DNA of 64,000 nucleotides from Sialis fuliginosa. Taxonomy: Eukaryota; Arthropoda; Insecta; Megaloptera; Sialidae. Shown piece by piece: positions 3,001 to 64,000 of this stretch; position 1 is the stretch's first letter, and every line of letters starts with the position of its first letter. The stretch is taken from the NCBI GenBank assembly GCA_961205875.1, contig OY540818.1:13924761-13988760 (forward strand), in the 5' to 3' direction. The notes beneath the pieces are model-generated. The model saw only the letters and a program-made list of their open reading frames with translations, did not search any database and had not been told where the DNA came from. Both the position numbers and the translations under genes were made by a program.

Positions 3001-3497
3001 TATATCAAAATTTTTGATACAAAAAACATACCAATATCAATTTACATACGATAACAACAGAACATTATCCAAACATTGTTTTCAATGTTTCTATACAATT
3101 TAATTCGTAGAGAAAACATTTTGAATATATGTAAGTATACATAAAAATTATTAAAATAGATATAAAAATATTAAAACTGAACAAAAATCTTTTTTCAGGG
3201 TAACAAACTGTTATTTTGTCTCTGAATATTGTTTGTAAAGAGATACTTGCGGGTAATAAGGCCTGCTAAGCTTAAATTTAAATAAAAATGAAAAACATTG
3301 CATATGTAATCAAGAAAATTTACTATCAATCTGATAAATTCTATCAATAACCAAAACAAAAATAGTCATTCTTAAAATTAACATATACTACGGTAGCATA
3401 ATAAGGCCTAAGGGTAAAATCTTCAAAAATAATCAAAGAATCAACATATATTTGAAAATTGAGATCAAATTAAATAGTTTTAACAACAATAATAAAT
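1..3497. other. AT-rich stretch without a recognisable gene
   Basis: I see no coding exon, RNA gene or complete mobile element here. The sequence is long A/T runs and short simple repeats. A phrase near 1310-1335 (TTTCATCAAAATCGGTTCA) is of the kind found in degraded arthropod non-LTR/SINE tails. If the exon-like segment just to the right (3498-3660, minus) is real, part of this stretch would be its 3' UTR. Confidence 0.5.
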
Positions 3498-49416: not shown

Positions 49417-55863
<6,447 letters not shown>

Positions 55864-56369
55864 AAATATAATTTCAATGGTAGCTTATTCTCCTTTATCC
55901 GTGCATGCAGATTTGCTATGTATAAAATTTATTTTAAAGTAAGTATGTAATTTATATTTTTATAAAAAAGTGATGAAATCTCAAAAATTTTGAATTAAAA
56001 AATGAAATTGATTAATTTTAAATAACAAATAGTATTTGTTAGTATTATAATTGTAAATATTTTATATTAAAATATATAAATGCATGTTTATTTCTGTTTA
56101 TTTTTTTTATACGGTATAGCAGTTCAGAATTGTATTTTTTATTACAGTGCCTTTTTTTTCTAAAAATTAAAACAGTGTGGCTATAAAATTATTAATACAG
56201 AAATAAATTGAAATATCAACTTTTATATCATAACATTATTTTATTTTATATTATCTGTTCCTGAAAGGCACGTTACTGTGTAATTTTAGACTAAAAACTA
56301 TTAAAAAGGAAAAACTGATAGAATTATCTTGCGATATTTCAAACAAACATTTCAGAGTGAGACCCGAGT
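55864..56369. other. BRPF1 3' flank
   Basis: A/T-rich sequence following the BRPF1 stop codon, expected to hold its 3' UTR. Several AATAAA-like words occur (for example near 56200). No other feature recognised. Confidence 0.45.
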
Positions 56370-56647
56370 TCAATTTTGGTTGAATCGAAGTTCATGCAAT
56401 GCGATGCAAGTACTGCTAGCATTCGTAACATCATATTTATGCAAAGTGGGGTTTTCAGCATTAATTGCAATGAAATCAAGCACATTCTTCTATCAATTAC
56501 GTTTTTTTAATTTTTTTTTATTAGGCAATAAATTTTATACTTTTTTAAAACGTGTCTTTATTATTTTATAAAATAAAGGGGAGGTAGGTGCCAAGATTAG
56601 ATTTTTTTTAAAAGGAGGCGTAGTAACATAAAGTTTGGAAACCACTG
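56370..56647 (+). pseudogene. C-terminal fragment of a hAT transposase with its right terminus
   Basis: The open frame around 56410-56481 reads LLAFVTSYLCKVGFSALIAM, which matches the conserved C-terminal dimerisation signature of hAT transposases of the ZBED5/FAM200/SCAND3 type (pattern TTYLCExGFSALxxIK). Upstream residues (FWLN...AMQVLL) fit the same region. Downstream the frame loses similarity. At 56631-56647 the sequence AAGTTTGGAAACCACTG is a hAT-type right terminus. The rest of the transposase and the left end are missing, so this is a dead fragment. Confidence 0.75.
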
Positions 56648-57618
56648 ATCTAGAAGGTGAAGTCAGGTATAAATGCATTTGGGATTGTAAAACCGATAAA
56701 AACAAAATATTTACATGCCTAATATGTACTTTTTTAACAAAAAGATAACTTTTTTACTCATTCTGCAATTAAAAAAAAGGAACGCTAAAGTACCAGTAAA
56801 CGGTTTTCATTGACAATTTGACTGAATGTTTACATGACTGCAAATATTTACAATGTAGGTATATTTTATATGTATAAATTTTTTTCAGATCTCTGAAGCG
56901 GTAAATTTCAGGGGGAGGGTTGTATAATTATTGCAATTCTATCATAGACAAAAGGAAAATATAATTTTTCAAAGTTTAAATTTTTAAAGTTTAACTCAAG
57001 ACCTCTTAATTTATCGATAATAAAACCCTAATTTATTTTTTTAACAAAATTTTAACAAAAAAACATTTTTTTAGTTGAGAAAATTTTTTAAATTTTTACT
57101 TGATATTTTGAGCATCACAAGATTTATGACTTTCTCAACTACATATTTGTTTTCCTTATTGTCTGGTGTACTGATAATTTTTTTTTTAAATTAGTCAATC
57201 AAAATTTTTAATACATAATACAAACGTATGTAACTAATTTTTTTATGATCATGTGATTAATAATTCCGAAGCACTATGTCACCAAATTAAGACGTTTTTA
57301 TATATCCATCCGGTATATTCCAAATTATTAATGACAGCAAATATACTACTAATTGAAGTTTACACAACATAGTCGTTATAATCAGTGCCGTCATGATACA
57401 TTTTTACAAATCGAACATTTGACCCGTTACAAAATTTTTACTAATAAAAAAAATTTACTTTCGACAGTTAAGTACCCCAAACCAAATTACTCTCTAGGCA
57501 TTTCAAATTTACAGTAAACAAAGTTCTCTTTTAAACAACTGTATTGTAACTATCAGGTGTTAATTTACATGCAATATTTATTGTTTCTTATTGTTAGTGC
57601 GATTTTATAATTTTCAAT
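56648..57618. other. AT-rich spacer, no gene recognised
   Basis: I see no exon, RNA gene or complete mobile element between the hAT remnant and the tRNA gene. Long T and A runs dominate. Confidence 0.45.
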
Positions 57619-57623
57619 AAAAA
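57619..57623 (-). terminator. pol III terminator of the tRNA gene
   Basis: On the minus strand a run of five T lies about ten bases after the tRNA 3' end, the standard RNA polymerase III stop signal. Confidence 0.75.
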
Positions 57624-57633
57624 GTTATCAATT

Positions 57634-57705
57634 GGGCTCGTCCGGGAGTTGAACCCGGGACCTCTCGCACCCGAAGCGAGAATCATACCCCTAGACCAAC
57701 GAGCC
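57634..57705 (-). tRNA. tRNA-Pro, anticodon CGG
   Basis: A 72-nt cloverleaf read on the minus strand: acceptor GGCTCGT pairing with ACGAGCC, D arm with box A TGGTCTAGGGG, anticodon stem CTCGC/GCGAG with loop TTCGGGT (anticodon CGG at 57671-57673, reading CCG), and T arm CCGGG/CCCGG with box B GGTTCAACTCC. Discriminator C at 57634. No intron. No CCA encoded, as usual in eukaryotes. The sequence is almost identical to the widely conserved animal proline tRNA, so it is very likely functional. Confidence 0.95.
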
Positions 57706-58639
57706 ACTTGGAATATTGTCGATTATTGTGTATTTTATAAATGTACTCAACAGCTCACAAAGGAGTTTTTATTTTTGTACTGCTATTTTATGATTCGAGA
57801 CTCACAATTTAATTTATAAAAGATGTATTATCACTCACTCAACTGATATTTTTATTTAAAATATATAAAATTACAGGTATAATAAGTATTTCACAATATT
57901 TAATATTTTATCGGAAACGGAAGTGTAAAATTTGTAATTTTATTTTTCGCGCGTAGGTGCATTCAGTTCTTATCAGCGATGCTAGCCGCAATTATTACAT
58001 CACACTTTACAGTATTACAGTCGTTACAGTGTTTAATACATACTGTTTATTATTTAATGCGTATTATATTACGGCTTTTTTTTATTTGTATGTTTTCTTG
58101 TATTCATACTTAATAAATACGAACGTTCAAAATTTACAAAAATATTTAATTTATAATAGTATTAACTGAACGCATACTTTATTTAAATATAACTTTCCTG
58201 TGGCGGCAGCACTATTATTAATTAACGATAAAGTAGAAATACATTGGTTTATATCTCCGCTAAAATAGTACATATTCATTATAATGATTATAATGGTGTT
58301 TAATTTAAATACCAGTAAATCTTTAATTTATACCTTGCCACGTCCTCGTAGAACTGTTTAGCTGTTATCTTTCTAGATAAATAGATGTTGAAAATGCAGT
58401 CAATACACGTACATGTCGTTTACACCTGTGTAGATAAATAGTATATTATAAAATTAAATAGCATATCCAAATAGATACATTAATAATTATATTTTTATAC
58501 TATCACTCTTTTGGAATTAAAATATCTTCTTATACGCTCATTAAATATTACATTATACAGGTTGTCCGAGAAGTTGATTCACCTAAATTGGTTAAAATGA
58601 CATGAACCATCTATTTAATAAATATGGTTTTCTTTATTC
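57706..58639. other. spacer between tRNA and foldback, with flank repeats
   Basis: No gene recognised. A block at 58425-58460 (CCTGTGTAGATAAATAG then TATATTATAAAATTAAAT) is a direct copy of the one at 58814-58850 in the foldback arm. The phrase ACAGGTTGTCCGAGAAGTTG at about 58557-58577 resembles a mariner-type terminus, but no partner end was found. Confidence 0.5.
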
Positions 58640-61600
58640 AAAAAATTTTGTATTATTTTGTTTTATTCCATTTTCAGCAATGTAAGTATGAATTATTCAA
58701 GTATATACTTTATGTATATATGTGTAGATAAACAGGTAACACAAAACTAATTAAGATGATCTATGTAGATAAATAGATATCAATTCAGTAAGTTCGTAAA
58801 TAGAAGTATTATACCTGTGTAGATAAACAGTTATATTATAAAATTAAATCGAATAGGATGCCCTAATCTAATACATACGATAGCATCTCTAGCTTGCAAA
58901 AAAATAATTTATAAATAAAGTCGGAGTGGTTCTATGAAAATATTCAAATTTGAAAATACATGTGGCGTCATCTAGCGGGAAAAGCTTGAACTATCAAAAA
59001 CTTTTAAGTTCGAGCTGTTTTTGTTATATGGTACGACAAGTACTTTTTAAATGTCAATATTTTTTTCAGAAGCCATTAAGACTAATTCAATTTTTTAACG
59101 AGTTAAAGATGCAGTCGTATGTATTAGGCTACCCTATTTCCAAAAATGCACATTAAAAGTTTTACTCGGATCGATAAAACTGTTTTTTATCAACATTTGT
59201 CCAAAAAATTTGTTTGAAATTTTTAACAAACGAAGGAATTTTAATCTGGTGTAATATATGATATCAGCGTGTCCTTTTACATACGATGTCATGTATAATT
59301 CTATTAAATTAATAAAGAGTGTATCAAATACCGTACTGAAAAACTCATCCTTATTGAATTTGAAAATAATTGACACACCATCGTATGTAATATGACGCAC
59401 TGATATCAGAAATGATAATAGATTTTAAATCAATTCACTGGTTCAAAATATGTTGAAATTTTTAAAGACAAAAGTTGATAAAAAACCGTGTTATCGATCC
59501 GAGCGCAACTTTTGATGGGCATATTTGGAATCAGGGGGCCCTAATACATACGATAGCGTCTCTAACTCGACACAAAAAATTTTTTCCAAAAAAGAAGCAA
59601 GGCTATAGTATGGCTTAAAAAACACCCGAAAAACACTTTTTTCGATTTTCAAATAATTAGATACGTTATCGCATGTAAAGGGATACGCTGATTCGACTTT
59701 TATTATCAGTTGCAAAATTCATCAAAGGGTTCAAAAGTTACAGCCATTTTACGACGAAAAATTGATAAAAAACTGTGATAGGGGTCCGAGCGGAACTTTT
59801 TATCAACATTTTTGGAATCACCATGCTGTTCTACATACGATACCGTGCCTAACTCGACAAAAAAAAATTTGTAGCGATGACGTAACACGACGGCGCCTCC
59901 ACCATATATAAATATGTACAAAAATAATATGTATGTATTTGGTATTTTTGAATAAGGAATACAAAAATATCAATAAATATTTTATTCTGTATATTTTTTT
60001 ATATGGTTGAGATGCCGTCGTGTTACGTCATCAGATAAATTTTTTTTTATCGAGTTAGGTATGCTATCGTATGTATAACAACATGGTGATTCCAAAAATG
60101 TTGATAAAAAGTTCCGGTCGGACCCCTATCACCGTTTTTTATTAATTTTTCGTCGTAAAATGGCTGTAACTTTTGAACCCTTTGATGAATTTTGCAACTG
60201 ATAATAAAAGTCGAATCAGCGTATCCCTTTACATGCGATAACGTATCTAATTATTTGAAAATCGAAAAAAGTGTTTTTCGGGTGTTTTTTAAGCCATACT
60301 ATAGCCTTGCTTCTTTTTTGGAAAAAAATTTTTGTGTCGAGTTAGAGACGCTATCGTATGTATTAGGGCCCCCTGATTCCAAATATGCCTATCAAAAGTT
60401 GCGCTCGGATCGATAACACGGTTTTTTATCAACTTTTGTCTTTAAAAATGTCATCAAATTTTGAACCAGTTAATTGATTTAAAATCTATTATCATTTCTG
60501 ATATCAGCGCGTCATATTACATACGATGGTGTGTCAATTATTTTTAAATTCAATAAGGATGAGTTTTTCAGTACGGTATTTGATACACTCTTTATTAATT
60601 TAATAGATTTATACATGACATCGTATGTAAAAGGACACGCTGATATCATATATTACACCAGATTAAAATTCCTTCGTTTGTTAAAAATTTCAAGCAAATT
60701 TTTTGAACAAATGTTGATAAAAAACAATTTTAGCGATCCGAGCGAAACTTATAATATGCATTTTTAGAACCAGAGTAGTCATATACATACGACTGCATCT
60801 TTAACTCGTTAAAAAATTGACTTAGTTGGAATGGCATCTGAAAAAAATCTTGAAATTTAAATGGTTCATGGACGCCATCTGGCAGAAATAGCTTGAACTA
60901 ACAATATAATTCAGCTAGTTTTTTGATAGTTTAAACTTTTCACGCTAGATTTTGTTACATGTACTTTTTAAATTTCAATTAATTTTTCAGATGCCATTTC
61001 GAGTAAGTCAATTTTTTTTGTCCAGTTAGAGACGCTTTCGTATGTATAAGGCTACCCTGATTCCAAAAATGCACATTAAAAGTTTTGTTCGGATCGATAA
61101 CACTCTTTATGTGTATTTTTGAACTCATGATATCCTTATACATACGATTGCGTCTTTCTCGCTAAAAAATTGAATTAGTCTTAATGGCTTCTGAAAAAAA
61201 TATTGACATTTAAAAGGTACATGTCGCACCATCTAACAAAAACAGCTCGAACTTAAAAGTTTTTGATAGTTCAAGCTTTTTCCGCTAGATGGCGCTACAT
61301 GCACCTTTTAAATATCAATATTTTTTTCAGAAGTCATTCCGACTAAACAAATTTTTTTACGAGCTACAGATGTTATCGTATGTATTAGGACATCCTGAAT
61401 GCAAATGCGCATAAAAATTAATACACCTTTCGATTTAATTTTATAATATAACTGTTTATCTACACAGGTATAATACGTATATTTACGAACTTACTGAATT
61501 GATATCTATTTATCTACATAGATCATCTTAATTAGTTTTGTGTTACCTGTTTATCTACACAGATATACATAAAATATATATTGTTATAATACTTACTTGA

Positions 61601-61660
61601 ATAATTCATATTTCATAGAACTTGTTGAAAACAAAATATTACTATATTTAGTATTTTATT
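58640..61660. repeat. 3-kb multi-palindromic foldback structure
   Basis: The core is an inverted repeat with dyad at about 59953/59954: positions 59491-59715 (minus) and 60192-60416 (plus) encode the same 74-residue frame with only two differences, and matching extends out to about 59099 and 60807. Outer arms (58687-58855 against 61435-61612) pair around about 60141. The shift shows that the right side has an extra module of about 375 bp (about 60985-61340), itself palindromic. Smaller dyads lie near 58995, 60910, 61092 and 61262. The word ACATACGAT or close variants occurs about 14 times in alternating orientation, next to phrases such as GATAAAAAAC, TCGGATCGATAA and CTAACTCG. The arms also carry CTGTTTATCTACACAG. 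No transposase, no clear target duplication. Confidence 0.85.
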
Positions 61661-62669
61661 TATAATATATAAATACCTTACTTAGGACATTTACTTTAAA
61701 ATGCATTTAAAACACAATATTCTACAGATGATTTTGAAAAAATTATATTTATGAATATATAGATTAGTATGTCTAGTATCTATTAAATGTAATACACTTT
61801 AGATAATAATAGTTTAAATACCGTTTTCAAAACTAGAATTTTAGTTATTTTAAATTTGAATAGCTCAAACAACGAATCGTGGAAGAAATTGTAGAAAATT
61901 AAATTTTCTACAAGATTGTTATTTAACATTTTAATGTAAAATCAACAGTTTACGAAATATAAAAAAACAAACTATTTTTTAAAAACTTTTCGGCGTTGCA
62001 ACTCGTAAACTATGTACGAGTACTTAGACCGATGTCTGTATAAGAAATTGTAGAAAATTTAATTTTCTAAAAGAGTGTCTTAGATGCATTAGACACAAAA
62101 AATACAAATTATTAGTAGATGATTATATTCTTTGGTTTCAACAACTTACCACTCGTTAAAATTACAAATTTAAAAATGTTTTCTATTAATAGAATCAATT
62201 GAAACAAATGACCATTTTTTAATTTATTGATAAATTAGAGATTAATTGATTATTATTTATTTTGCAGAATAAAAAAAAATTTATATCTTTTTGTAGATAT
62301 AAAAACTCCGTGTAATGCAGTCCCATGTTTAAATTTAATATCTTCTTATTTTTCTTTTGAATCTAGATGAGACATTATATGAATAACGGGGGGAGGGGGG
62401 GGGGAGACTTGCCAGGGCAAGATGAAAAAAAAATAAATTATACAAAATTTAACCTTTTCTTTCTACTGGACATATTATAAGTTTTGGGCCAGTGGTCCCG
62501 GGAGCTCTAAATCCGTGTCTGTTTGTAGTTCAATGAGCGTTTTGATAAATTACCTGAATTTATAAATACCTCACTTACTAATATAAGTAATTTTTGTGCA
62601 AAAATAAGCAAATTTTATATTTTTTATAGTTTGTTTTTTACTGATTTAAAAAATATTTGCCAAATCGAT
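61661..62669. other. AT-rich stretch with short palindromes and a G-tract
   Basis: A short block AAGAAATTGTAGAAAATT, followed by AATTTTCTA, occurs twice (61884 and 62041). At 62388-62404 there is a run of six and then ten G separated by one A, a potential quadruplex former. No gene recognised. Confidence 0.45.
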
Positions 62670-63003
62670 CCATAAATACACATTCTCAATCCCAGCGTCA
62701 CTTACAGGGTCTAATCAAAATAAACCTAATGGATAACAAAATGAACACATGGATGAATATGGCTTCGATACGTACAGTGGTTTAGGCCTGACGATTTCAT
62801 ATACAAAAAAACAACGTTTTGATTTATTTTTTAAAAGGAAAAAATACAATTTTTCGAAATATCTCGACTCCATTCACTCCATATAAACTTATCGGAGCAC
62901 CAAACGAACATATGGTGTGAATATGGTTTCGATACGTCCAGTGGTTTAGGCCTAATGAGAATACATACATAGGTACCTACTAACGTTTTTATATATTAAG
63001 ATA
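62670..63003 (+). repeat. two tandem copies of dispersed repeat B
   Basis: Two diverged copies (about 62670-62820 and 62855-63003) share ATATGGYTTCGATACGT, CAGTGGTTTAGGCCT and an ending in AACGTTTT with the single copy at 11880-12053. The second ends ACGTTTTTATATATTAAGAT exactly as the distant copy does. This fits the 3' tail of a degraded non-LTR element or SINE. Identification of the parent family was not possible. Confidence 0.65.
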
Positions 63004-64000
63004 ATAAATGCGTGTACGAGATATAACCAAGACGAAACAGATTGATTTTTTTATGTGACGATTATTACGAGACGAAACTGTTCCTTGTAAAATACAAGTG
63101 TGCAGCCCTAATTCAAAATATCTGATACCTTTAATATATTTCGATATTACCTACAAGTATTTTGATTATTTTGCGTATAATGGTAAAAACATTATACCTG
63201 TCTTCATCGTCACTGCATACCGGCCAGTGCAGCTGTCTCTTTCTTGCAGAAAGGAATTCTCAGTGCAAGAAGTGGTTGTACAGAAGATGGAGTAGCGGTC
63301 ATGGCCATGTCGATGTCGATGGGCCCGTTATAATGCTGTATGTATGCGGCTGCGCGCATAGAAAGATAGACGTGTAAAAGAAAAGTGCGCTGGCATTTAA
63401 AAGAAAACTCGAAAAGGATTCAAATACCAAACACACAAAATATGTGAAATTAGGTTTAGTGCAAAAACAATTTTAGTTTAGTGTTTTATAAAATATGTGA
63501 ATTGAAAAAATATATTAATAATAAAATTTAAAAAGATGTTCTGAAATAATTAATTAGGTTTATTTGATATATAATATTTCATCAGTGGTTTTATATTACA
63601 TATTATAACTATTTGTACTTTTATTCTGTGATAGAAATACATAGGACTAAATATTATTTTTATTAATATAAATTCAAATTTATATTTCTGTGTCAAGAAT
63701 TTATATTAATTAATAAGGTATAAGAAAGCATAAAGTTTATAAAAACAGTTTAGTAAGTTAGAAGAAAGTTGTTAATGTTAAAACAAGAGTACAATAAAAT
63801 CACTCATACATTTTCTAGGAAGGAAAAGTTTACAACAATAAAGAGTTATCATATGTAAAATGATGCTGGTAACCATATAAAAAATGTGACCCACTTATGC
63901 AAAAAACGAGCAACAGCAAAGTTTTTAATTAAATTCATTACACGAAGAAATATTGTATACGTGCAATCAAATACAATCGATCTACATTGGTAATATTAAT
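63004..64000. other. terminal stretch with hAT-like end and GC-richer patch
   Basis: CACTTG-type terminus: CAAGTGTGCAGCCCT at 63097-63111 resembles a hAT right end (complement AGGGCTGCACACTTG), preceded by GAGACGAAAC repeats like those at 7600-7680. A GC-richer patch follows at 63210-63370 (GGCCAGTGCAGCTG, GGCTGCGCGCATAG). It has an acceptor-like TCTCTTTCTTGCAG, but its short open frames show no known domain. It may be an exon or promoter of a gene outside the window. Confidence 0.4.

Follow-up and report, generated by a model that had tools for sequence, protein, structure and literature searches.

A dispersed family of nested foldback elements in Sialis fuliginosa and its probable derivation from PIF/Harbinger transposons

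The palindrome and its surroundings

The window analysed here is a stretch of 64,000 nucleotides from Sialis fuliginosa (C10:13924761-13988760), and the genome to which it belongs (392 Mb, 20 contigs) was searched as well. It includes frames that we take, by name, to be VPS53-, DNA2- and BRPF-like, and a tRNA-Pro (CGG) gene at 57634-57705. Located 1 kb to the right of the tRNA gene is the copy of the repeat described below (the window copy), the center of which is an imperfect 2.2-kb palindrome at 58868-61050 that is 88.4% identical to its own reverse complement over the 2213 columns of a self-alignment and is enclosed by wider inverted arms. In addition, a transposon-like end, ACAGGTTGTCCGAGAAGTTG, adjoins the window copy at 58560, and a separate, widely dispersed repeat occupies 62646-63009 (76-81% identity among the best 40 of 1412 first-look candidates). 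The parts of the window copy and its margins are as follows.

58366..58466, plus strand: partial extra end block (E) outside the left arm; matches 58759-58855, 61433-61523 and positions 1390-1488 of L027
58640..58853, plus strand: end block of the left arm, E2 type, consisting of polypyrimidine-CAG, GTAAGTATG and then GTGTAGATAAACAG repeats (self-comparison, genome search)
58868..61050, no strand: palindromic core with 88.4% arms (self-alignment)
59114..59287, plus strand: R1 unit with inverted words at both borders (word segments, unit classification)
59380..59554, plus strand: R2 unit, about 75% similar to reverse-complemented R1 (word segments, unit classification)
59668..59841, plus strand: R3 unit (word segments, unit classification)
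59842..60065, no strand: central joint spacer, itself a dyad of 59860-59923 and 59985-60048 (self-comparison, word segments)
60066..60239, minus strand: mirrored R3 (word segments, unit classification)
60353..60527, minus strand: mirrored R2 (word segments, unit classification)
60620..60793, minus strand: mirrored R1 (word segments, unit classification)
61037..61148, plus strand: extra shortened R unit (103 between its words), confined to the right side and too short for the R1/R2/R3 classes
61429..61820, minus strand: end block of the right arm and outer arm (self-comparison, genome matches)
61880..62079, minus strand: stretch like a 155-bp tandem repeat, with internal copies at 61883-61919 and 62042-62078

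A preliminary description of this DNA had proposed a nested palindrome and not a simple one, which was confirmed by self-comparison of the window. As it had also noticed, smaller dyads lie inside (about 490 nt, with a mean likeness of 73%), and the right side alone carries an extra module, the region 61037-61415 with an additional short unit and a spacer. The inner arms (59037-59870 and 60037-60870, 834 nt) are 95% complementary and the outer arms (58684-58853 and 61429-61598, 170 nt) 94% complementary by self-comparison, and the shared frame reported earlier is present as 75 codons with two residue differences (59491-59718 on the minus strand, 60189-60416 on the plus strand). The frame is not coding. 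Over the whole palindrome the arms reach only 88% and are not near-identical, and the term young applies with reservation, the window copy (88.4% overall) not being among the most symmetrical copies of the family, of which L033 (98.4%) is the foremost. The proposed limits of 58640..61660 were too narrow, as family sequence extends to about 58366 on the left and to about 61820 on the right.

The ACATACGAT word is found 16 times within 2.5 kb of the window copy (58873-61375; 11 exact matches and five with one mismatch); strict alternation of orientation, applying to all 16 words, agrees with what had been described, whereas the count had been put at about 14. The rest of the window (61 kb) holds 16 further matches with at most one mismatch, a single one of which is exact (at 3044). 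Exact matches to CTGTTTATCTACACAG, which the terminal arms were said to carry, occur at 58815, 61452 and 61547.

Family members across the genome and their symmetry

The genome-wide copy count that had been envisaged yielded many dispersed copies: a 961-base core query gave 416 first-look candidate places, 40 of which were scored with 488 matches, and the end block alone gave 453 first-look candidates genome-wide (40 scored). We fetched 33 places from the best-scoring matches, and counts on these copies are thus not those of a random sample. All 33 contain palindromes with flanks of their own, the best self-inverted alignment being 84-98% identical. Family similarity stops on both sides within most of the fetched stretches, except in L011, L012, L032 and L034, which hold core sequence at or near the fetched edge, and the outer limits are ragged, most fetched copies lacking one or both termini. 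Arm length varies across the dispersed family, and inverted arms with internal repeats make up most of the element, both of which are foldback features. This is a real, dispersed family of the foldback type; the earlier remark that no named element has such an architecture is not supported, since foldback-type transposons are a known kind. A chromosome-specific family was considered and rejected: core matches were fetched only from C7-C11, C13 and C14, and other queries also matched C1-C6 and C12. The exact pattern had no match in the viral collection and none in the prokaryote collection.

Palindromes are a classic assembly problem, which counts in favor of an artefact, but the 34 copies (33 fetched and the window copy) differ in flanks, arm identities and axis positions. 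Since every fetched place is palindromic with independent flanks, such an explanation, whose overall chance we consider negligible, is very unlikely for the family.

The core has a regular anatomy. Among 276 segments running from a minus to a plus word in the fetched copies, 254 are 164-167 long, and the 266 spacers from plus to minus words are chiefly 101 (91 cases) or 122 (79 cases) and mostly 220-260 at joints. After exclusion of the R segments outside 160-170 (18 of 276), the remaining 258 units were classified as R1 (70), R2 (105) and R3 (83); R1, when reverse-complemented, is about 75% similar to R2. In the canonical arrangement R1-R2-R3 leads into mirrored R3-R2-R1, and in longer copies such halves alternate via two joint types, with exceptions. 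One abnormal half-module (2011 long) of 53 was dropped before the halves were compared; of the other 52, which come from 29 loci, 39 are exactly 728 long. Half-module lengths are almost free of indels despite approximately 10% divergence and no coding.

A coding role for the half-modules was rejected: the longest open run in their consensus (103 codons) is unremarkable (P 0.086), stops interrupt the three longest runs in 30, 14 and 18 of 39 copies, and none of these runs has its highest variability at third positions. A CCGCTAGATGGCGC-like motif, which we liken to the CTCF motif, is present in the joint spacer of 29 of 34 copies (67 matches versus 0 in one shuffle of each), with CTCF-like cores at 58965 and 61282 in the window copy. 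A CTCF site was likewise rejected, the CCGCTAGATGGCGC core being no more conserved than its flanks (0.81 versus 0.78 and 0.84). The end block in most copies opens with an AAG|GTAAGTA-like word, which at both arm starts resembles a splice donor reading inwards, and in one subfamily an acceptor-like TTTTATTCCATTTTCAG precedes a further donor-like word by about 10 bases.

Long arms and nearly indel-free unit lengths would also suit a long hairpin RNA locus maintained for siRNA production. However, there are hundreds of candidate places, the arms are at all stages of decay, no RNA family was found at the locus (the sole Rfam match being the neighboring tRNA), and the constancy of length may merely reflect shared descent, and we give this reading little chance.

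Halves of the same copy are on average 95.6% alike across the R3 joint (12 pairs) and 97.4% across the R1 joint (8 pairs), compared to 90.4% for halves of different copies (1296 pairs). The range of 92-99.9% within copies, set against the mean between copies, bears out the earlier view that the arms are recent or homogenised. The nearest relative of a half is found in the same copy in 28 of 41 cases and in another copy in 13, and halves are mosaic and common to different copies (L011/L016). The axes of 10 copies with a self-symmetric axis of at least 3.5 kb were compared together with module axes of 1.5-2.3 kb. The long axis was the most symmetrical in six copies (L010, L021, L025, L033, L037 and L039) and one of two long axes was so in L012, whereas in L011, L026 and L028 a module axis equalled or exceeded the long one in symmetry. 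Across the family, the 490-nt dyads are 68-83% alike (mostly 73-79%), module dyads 84-94% and whole-copy dyads 86-98%. Because identity is graded by dyad size, the comparison of sequences suggests that serial inverted duplication may have been followed by homogenisation along the whole-copy axis. A further proposal, which strikes us as quite unlikely, is a transposon copied by folding, in which a copy would be rebuilt from one arm (hairpin-primed or arm-to-arm), symmetry would be reset on the whole-copy axis, and the fractal palindromes would record their order of origin.

Termini, transposase pieces and origin

PIF/Harbinger elements have a DDE_Tnp_4 transposase, a second, Myb-like protein, a short terminal repeat and a 3-bp TWA duplication. 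In some family copies, similarity continues past the end block to a common terminus, which in copies with both ends is a short inverted repeat of 7 bases plus TTTTCA. Sixteen ends were read at 13 loci, 13 of which are readable as TTT[T/C]CA; the end probe itself began with TAA, and the match rests on the inner 60 bases. With the 7 bases fixed, TAA or TTA stands just outside 12 of the 13 readable ends versus 59 of 843 background sites in the 33 fetched loci, the exception being the left end of L028, which fits with one extra T. The three other ends (L013, L017 and L021) are too degenerate for a reading, and TAA/TTA is absent from L021. Four of the fetched copies (L028, L033, L044 and L045) are two-ended, and TAA is found on both sides, on one strand, in L033, L044 and L045, as well as in L028 if one extra T is allowed; taken one base longer, the left ends of L044 and L045 give TTA and ATA. 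In these four copies the flanks agree over 3 bases only, and at the family level a 3-bp TWA target duplication of the PIF/Harbinger kind is present. The 8-10 bp target duplication of Mutator/Foldback elements was not found: repeats of at least 8 within 450 bases of the end blocks are in no clear excess (6.0 per copy versus 5.4 in mismatched pairs). Within window positions 55001-64000, no terminus above chance was detected, and the window copy shows neither the terminal repeat nor the duplication of PIF/Harbinger.

The arm between terminus and end block gave 78 first-look candidates (40 scored) and encodes broken pieces of a transposase. Inverted pairs of this gene-bearing arm number at least six at a distance of 4.7-6.2 kb, and two others are separated by 9-11 kb. 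One 43-aa arm piece matches DDE_Tnp_4 at 4e-4 and its L034 counterpart at 0.001, both below the curated cut-off, and the remaining arm pieces tried gave no DDE_Tnp_4 match. A clean 152-aa frame with a DDE_Tnp_4 match of 1.8e-23, which provides the PIF/Harbinger transposase at the family level, is found in L046, a diverged, non-palindromic relative with the same terminus type on one side and no core match. Used as a query against L009-L046, this frame matched five of the 37 other loci at E 1e-5 to 1e-45: in L044 and L045 each of the two arms matched, in L021, L034 and L038 a single arm. Because no match goes past residue 105, the transposase-bearing foldback copies seem, as far as their sequences tell, to share a loss of the C-terminal part. 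Nearly the whole of L044 and L045 is one inverted repeat, whose arms run from a broken Harbinger transposase gene through the end block to a core composed of mirrored units, each about 165 bp long, and two copies have a gene-bearing arm of approximately 1.15 kb on either side. Read by eye, the gene includes a GTATGT...TTACAG stretch that resembles an intron. The two-ended L028 and L033 have no match to the L046 frame, and a tblastn search of the window with this frame returned nothing at E 1, leaving the window copy with no detected transposase.

The window copy probably belongs to a family of foldback-type DNA transposons that derives from PIF/Harbinger, is non-autonomous and is moved in trans. 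A PIF/Harbinger origin is well supported for copies with ends and gene pieces, and we infer it for the window copy. Transposase supplied in trans by a Harbinger element would cut and paste complete copies, which would make the family mobile; the core would have grown by successive inverted duplications, and the arms within one copy would be made alike by arm-to-arm copying or gene conversion. Several findings count against this explanation: the window copy has no above-chance terminus or transposase piece, two of the four two-ended copies lack a transposase match, and no intact transposase with matching ends was present among the loci examined. The core and the Harbinger parts may also differ in origin. 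The core and end blocks could be a palindromic repeat in its own right, which inserted a single time into a Harbinger element and was carried along with it; Harbinger would then be the carrier and not the ancestor. The core has no coding content, many core copies are free of detectable Harbinger arms, L046 possesses terminus and gene but no core match, and the surroundings of the ACATACGAT word, which we had considered as a copy of the Harbinger terminus and rejected as such, resemble that terminus no more than by chance (best score 16 versus a null mean of 18). On the other hand, the order from arm to core recurs in L021, L034, L044 and L045, and each two-ended copy has the appearance of one insertion accompanied by a single TAA duplication. 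We regard the carrier role as a distinct possibility, although a somewhat doubtful one.

Outer arms and known foldback elements

The right arm of the window copy runs to about 61820, as judged by a match to L031, and then into the 155-bp-repeat-like stretch at 61880-62079. For the 241 bases at 61560-61800, three other places in the genome match 237-241 bases and two more match 211. A search for the 155-bp repeat scored the best 40 of 173 candidates, and the matches listed, those in the window and at C6:5635935 apart, are located no more than approximately 2.3 Mb from the start of a contig or 1 Mb from where C8 or C9 ends. In L047, end blocks and core sequence lie between inverted 155-bp arrays. 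The repeat is possibly a satellite of near-telomere regions with a link to the foldback family, and the window copy is most plausibly either a member that was truncated or rearranged or part of a subfamily with 155-bp tandem repeats as outer arms. The 155-bp arrays (for example, C5:106693-110544, C9:22.29-23.19 Mb and C8:23.42-23.89 Mb) form inverted pairs about 2 kb apart in several places, L047 being the one whose middle was fetched. A further type of outer arm consists of tandem repeats of about 160 bp, which flank L011, L012, L015, L016, L028 and L034 and are joined to pieces of the core in several of them. Another transposon-like end, TACAGGGTGGCGCAACG..., occurs in L043 beside a family member.

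The inverted 155-bp arrays near contig ends, together with outer limits that are ragged, outer arms of three kinds, mosaic halves common to copies such as L011 and L016, and the concentration of 16 of the 33 fetched places on C10 (a query-biased figure), would be compatible with a family that spreads mainly like a satellite, through gene conversion, unequal exchange and inverted segmental duplication, and that transposes little or not at all today. This is in our judgment unlikely, given that copies are found on many contigs with different flanks and that TAA stands on both sides of two-ended copies.

Most foldback elements have been assigned to the Mutator superfamily, although some, Galileo (P) among them, have not. 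Tetris of Drosophila virilis is a modular, non-autonomous foldback element (PMC4079207) that resembles the Sialis family in its long inverted arms, which are divided into flanking, tandem-repeat and inner domains, in its lack of conserved open frames, and in tandem repeats that also occur as satellite-like arrays. It differs in its 8-10 bp duplications, for which a Mutator relationship was suggested by its authors, in contrast to the 3-bp TAA and PIF/Harbinger pieces found here, and the mirrored units of the Sialis family run to the center. Galileo (PMC4168063, PMC3688188) is alike in its long dynamic arms and its non-autonomous variants, and its inverted repeats have taken up transposase gene sequence, a recruitment that its authors considered unique so far; repeats within its arms bind transposase. 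However, it belongs to the P superfamily with 7-8 bp duplications, its recruited frame pieces measure 69 to >500 bp compared to gene-bearing arms of approximately 1.15 kb in Sialis, and the Sialis family adds a core in which inverted units alternate. The Mutator/Foldback family Tm1 of root-knot nematodes (PMC3169594) shares composite inverted repeats of variable length and the coexistence of MITE-like and transposase-bearing members, but is a Mutator element with 9-bp duplications. PIF/Harbinger includes none of these three.

Ordinary PIF/Harbinger elements have short terminal repeats and one copy of the gene, whereas L044 and L045 are inverted almost from end to end with a broken gene in each arm. 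No PIF/Harbinger foldback came up by title or abstract in searches of an open-access library, although one may have been published. The foldback form is already known; this lineage and the degree of nesting look new. A PIF/Harbinger foldback with transposase in both arms would again show the repeated evolution of the foldback form, and the graded nesting (arm identities of about 75%, 84-94% and up to 98%) would offer a natural record of palindrome growth and the upkeep of symmetry. In addition, the 155-bp arms connect the family with repeats located close to contig ends, much as Tetris is connected with satellites.
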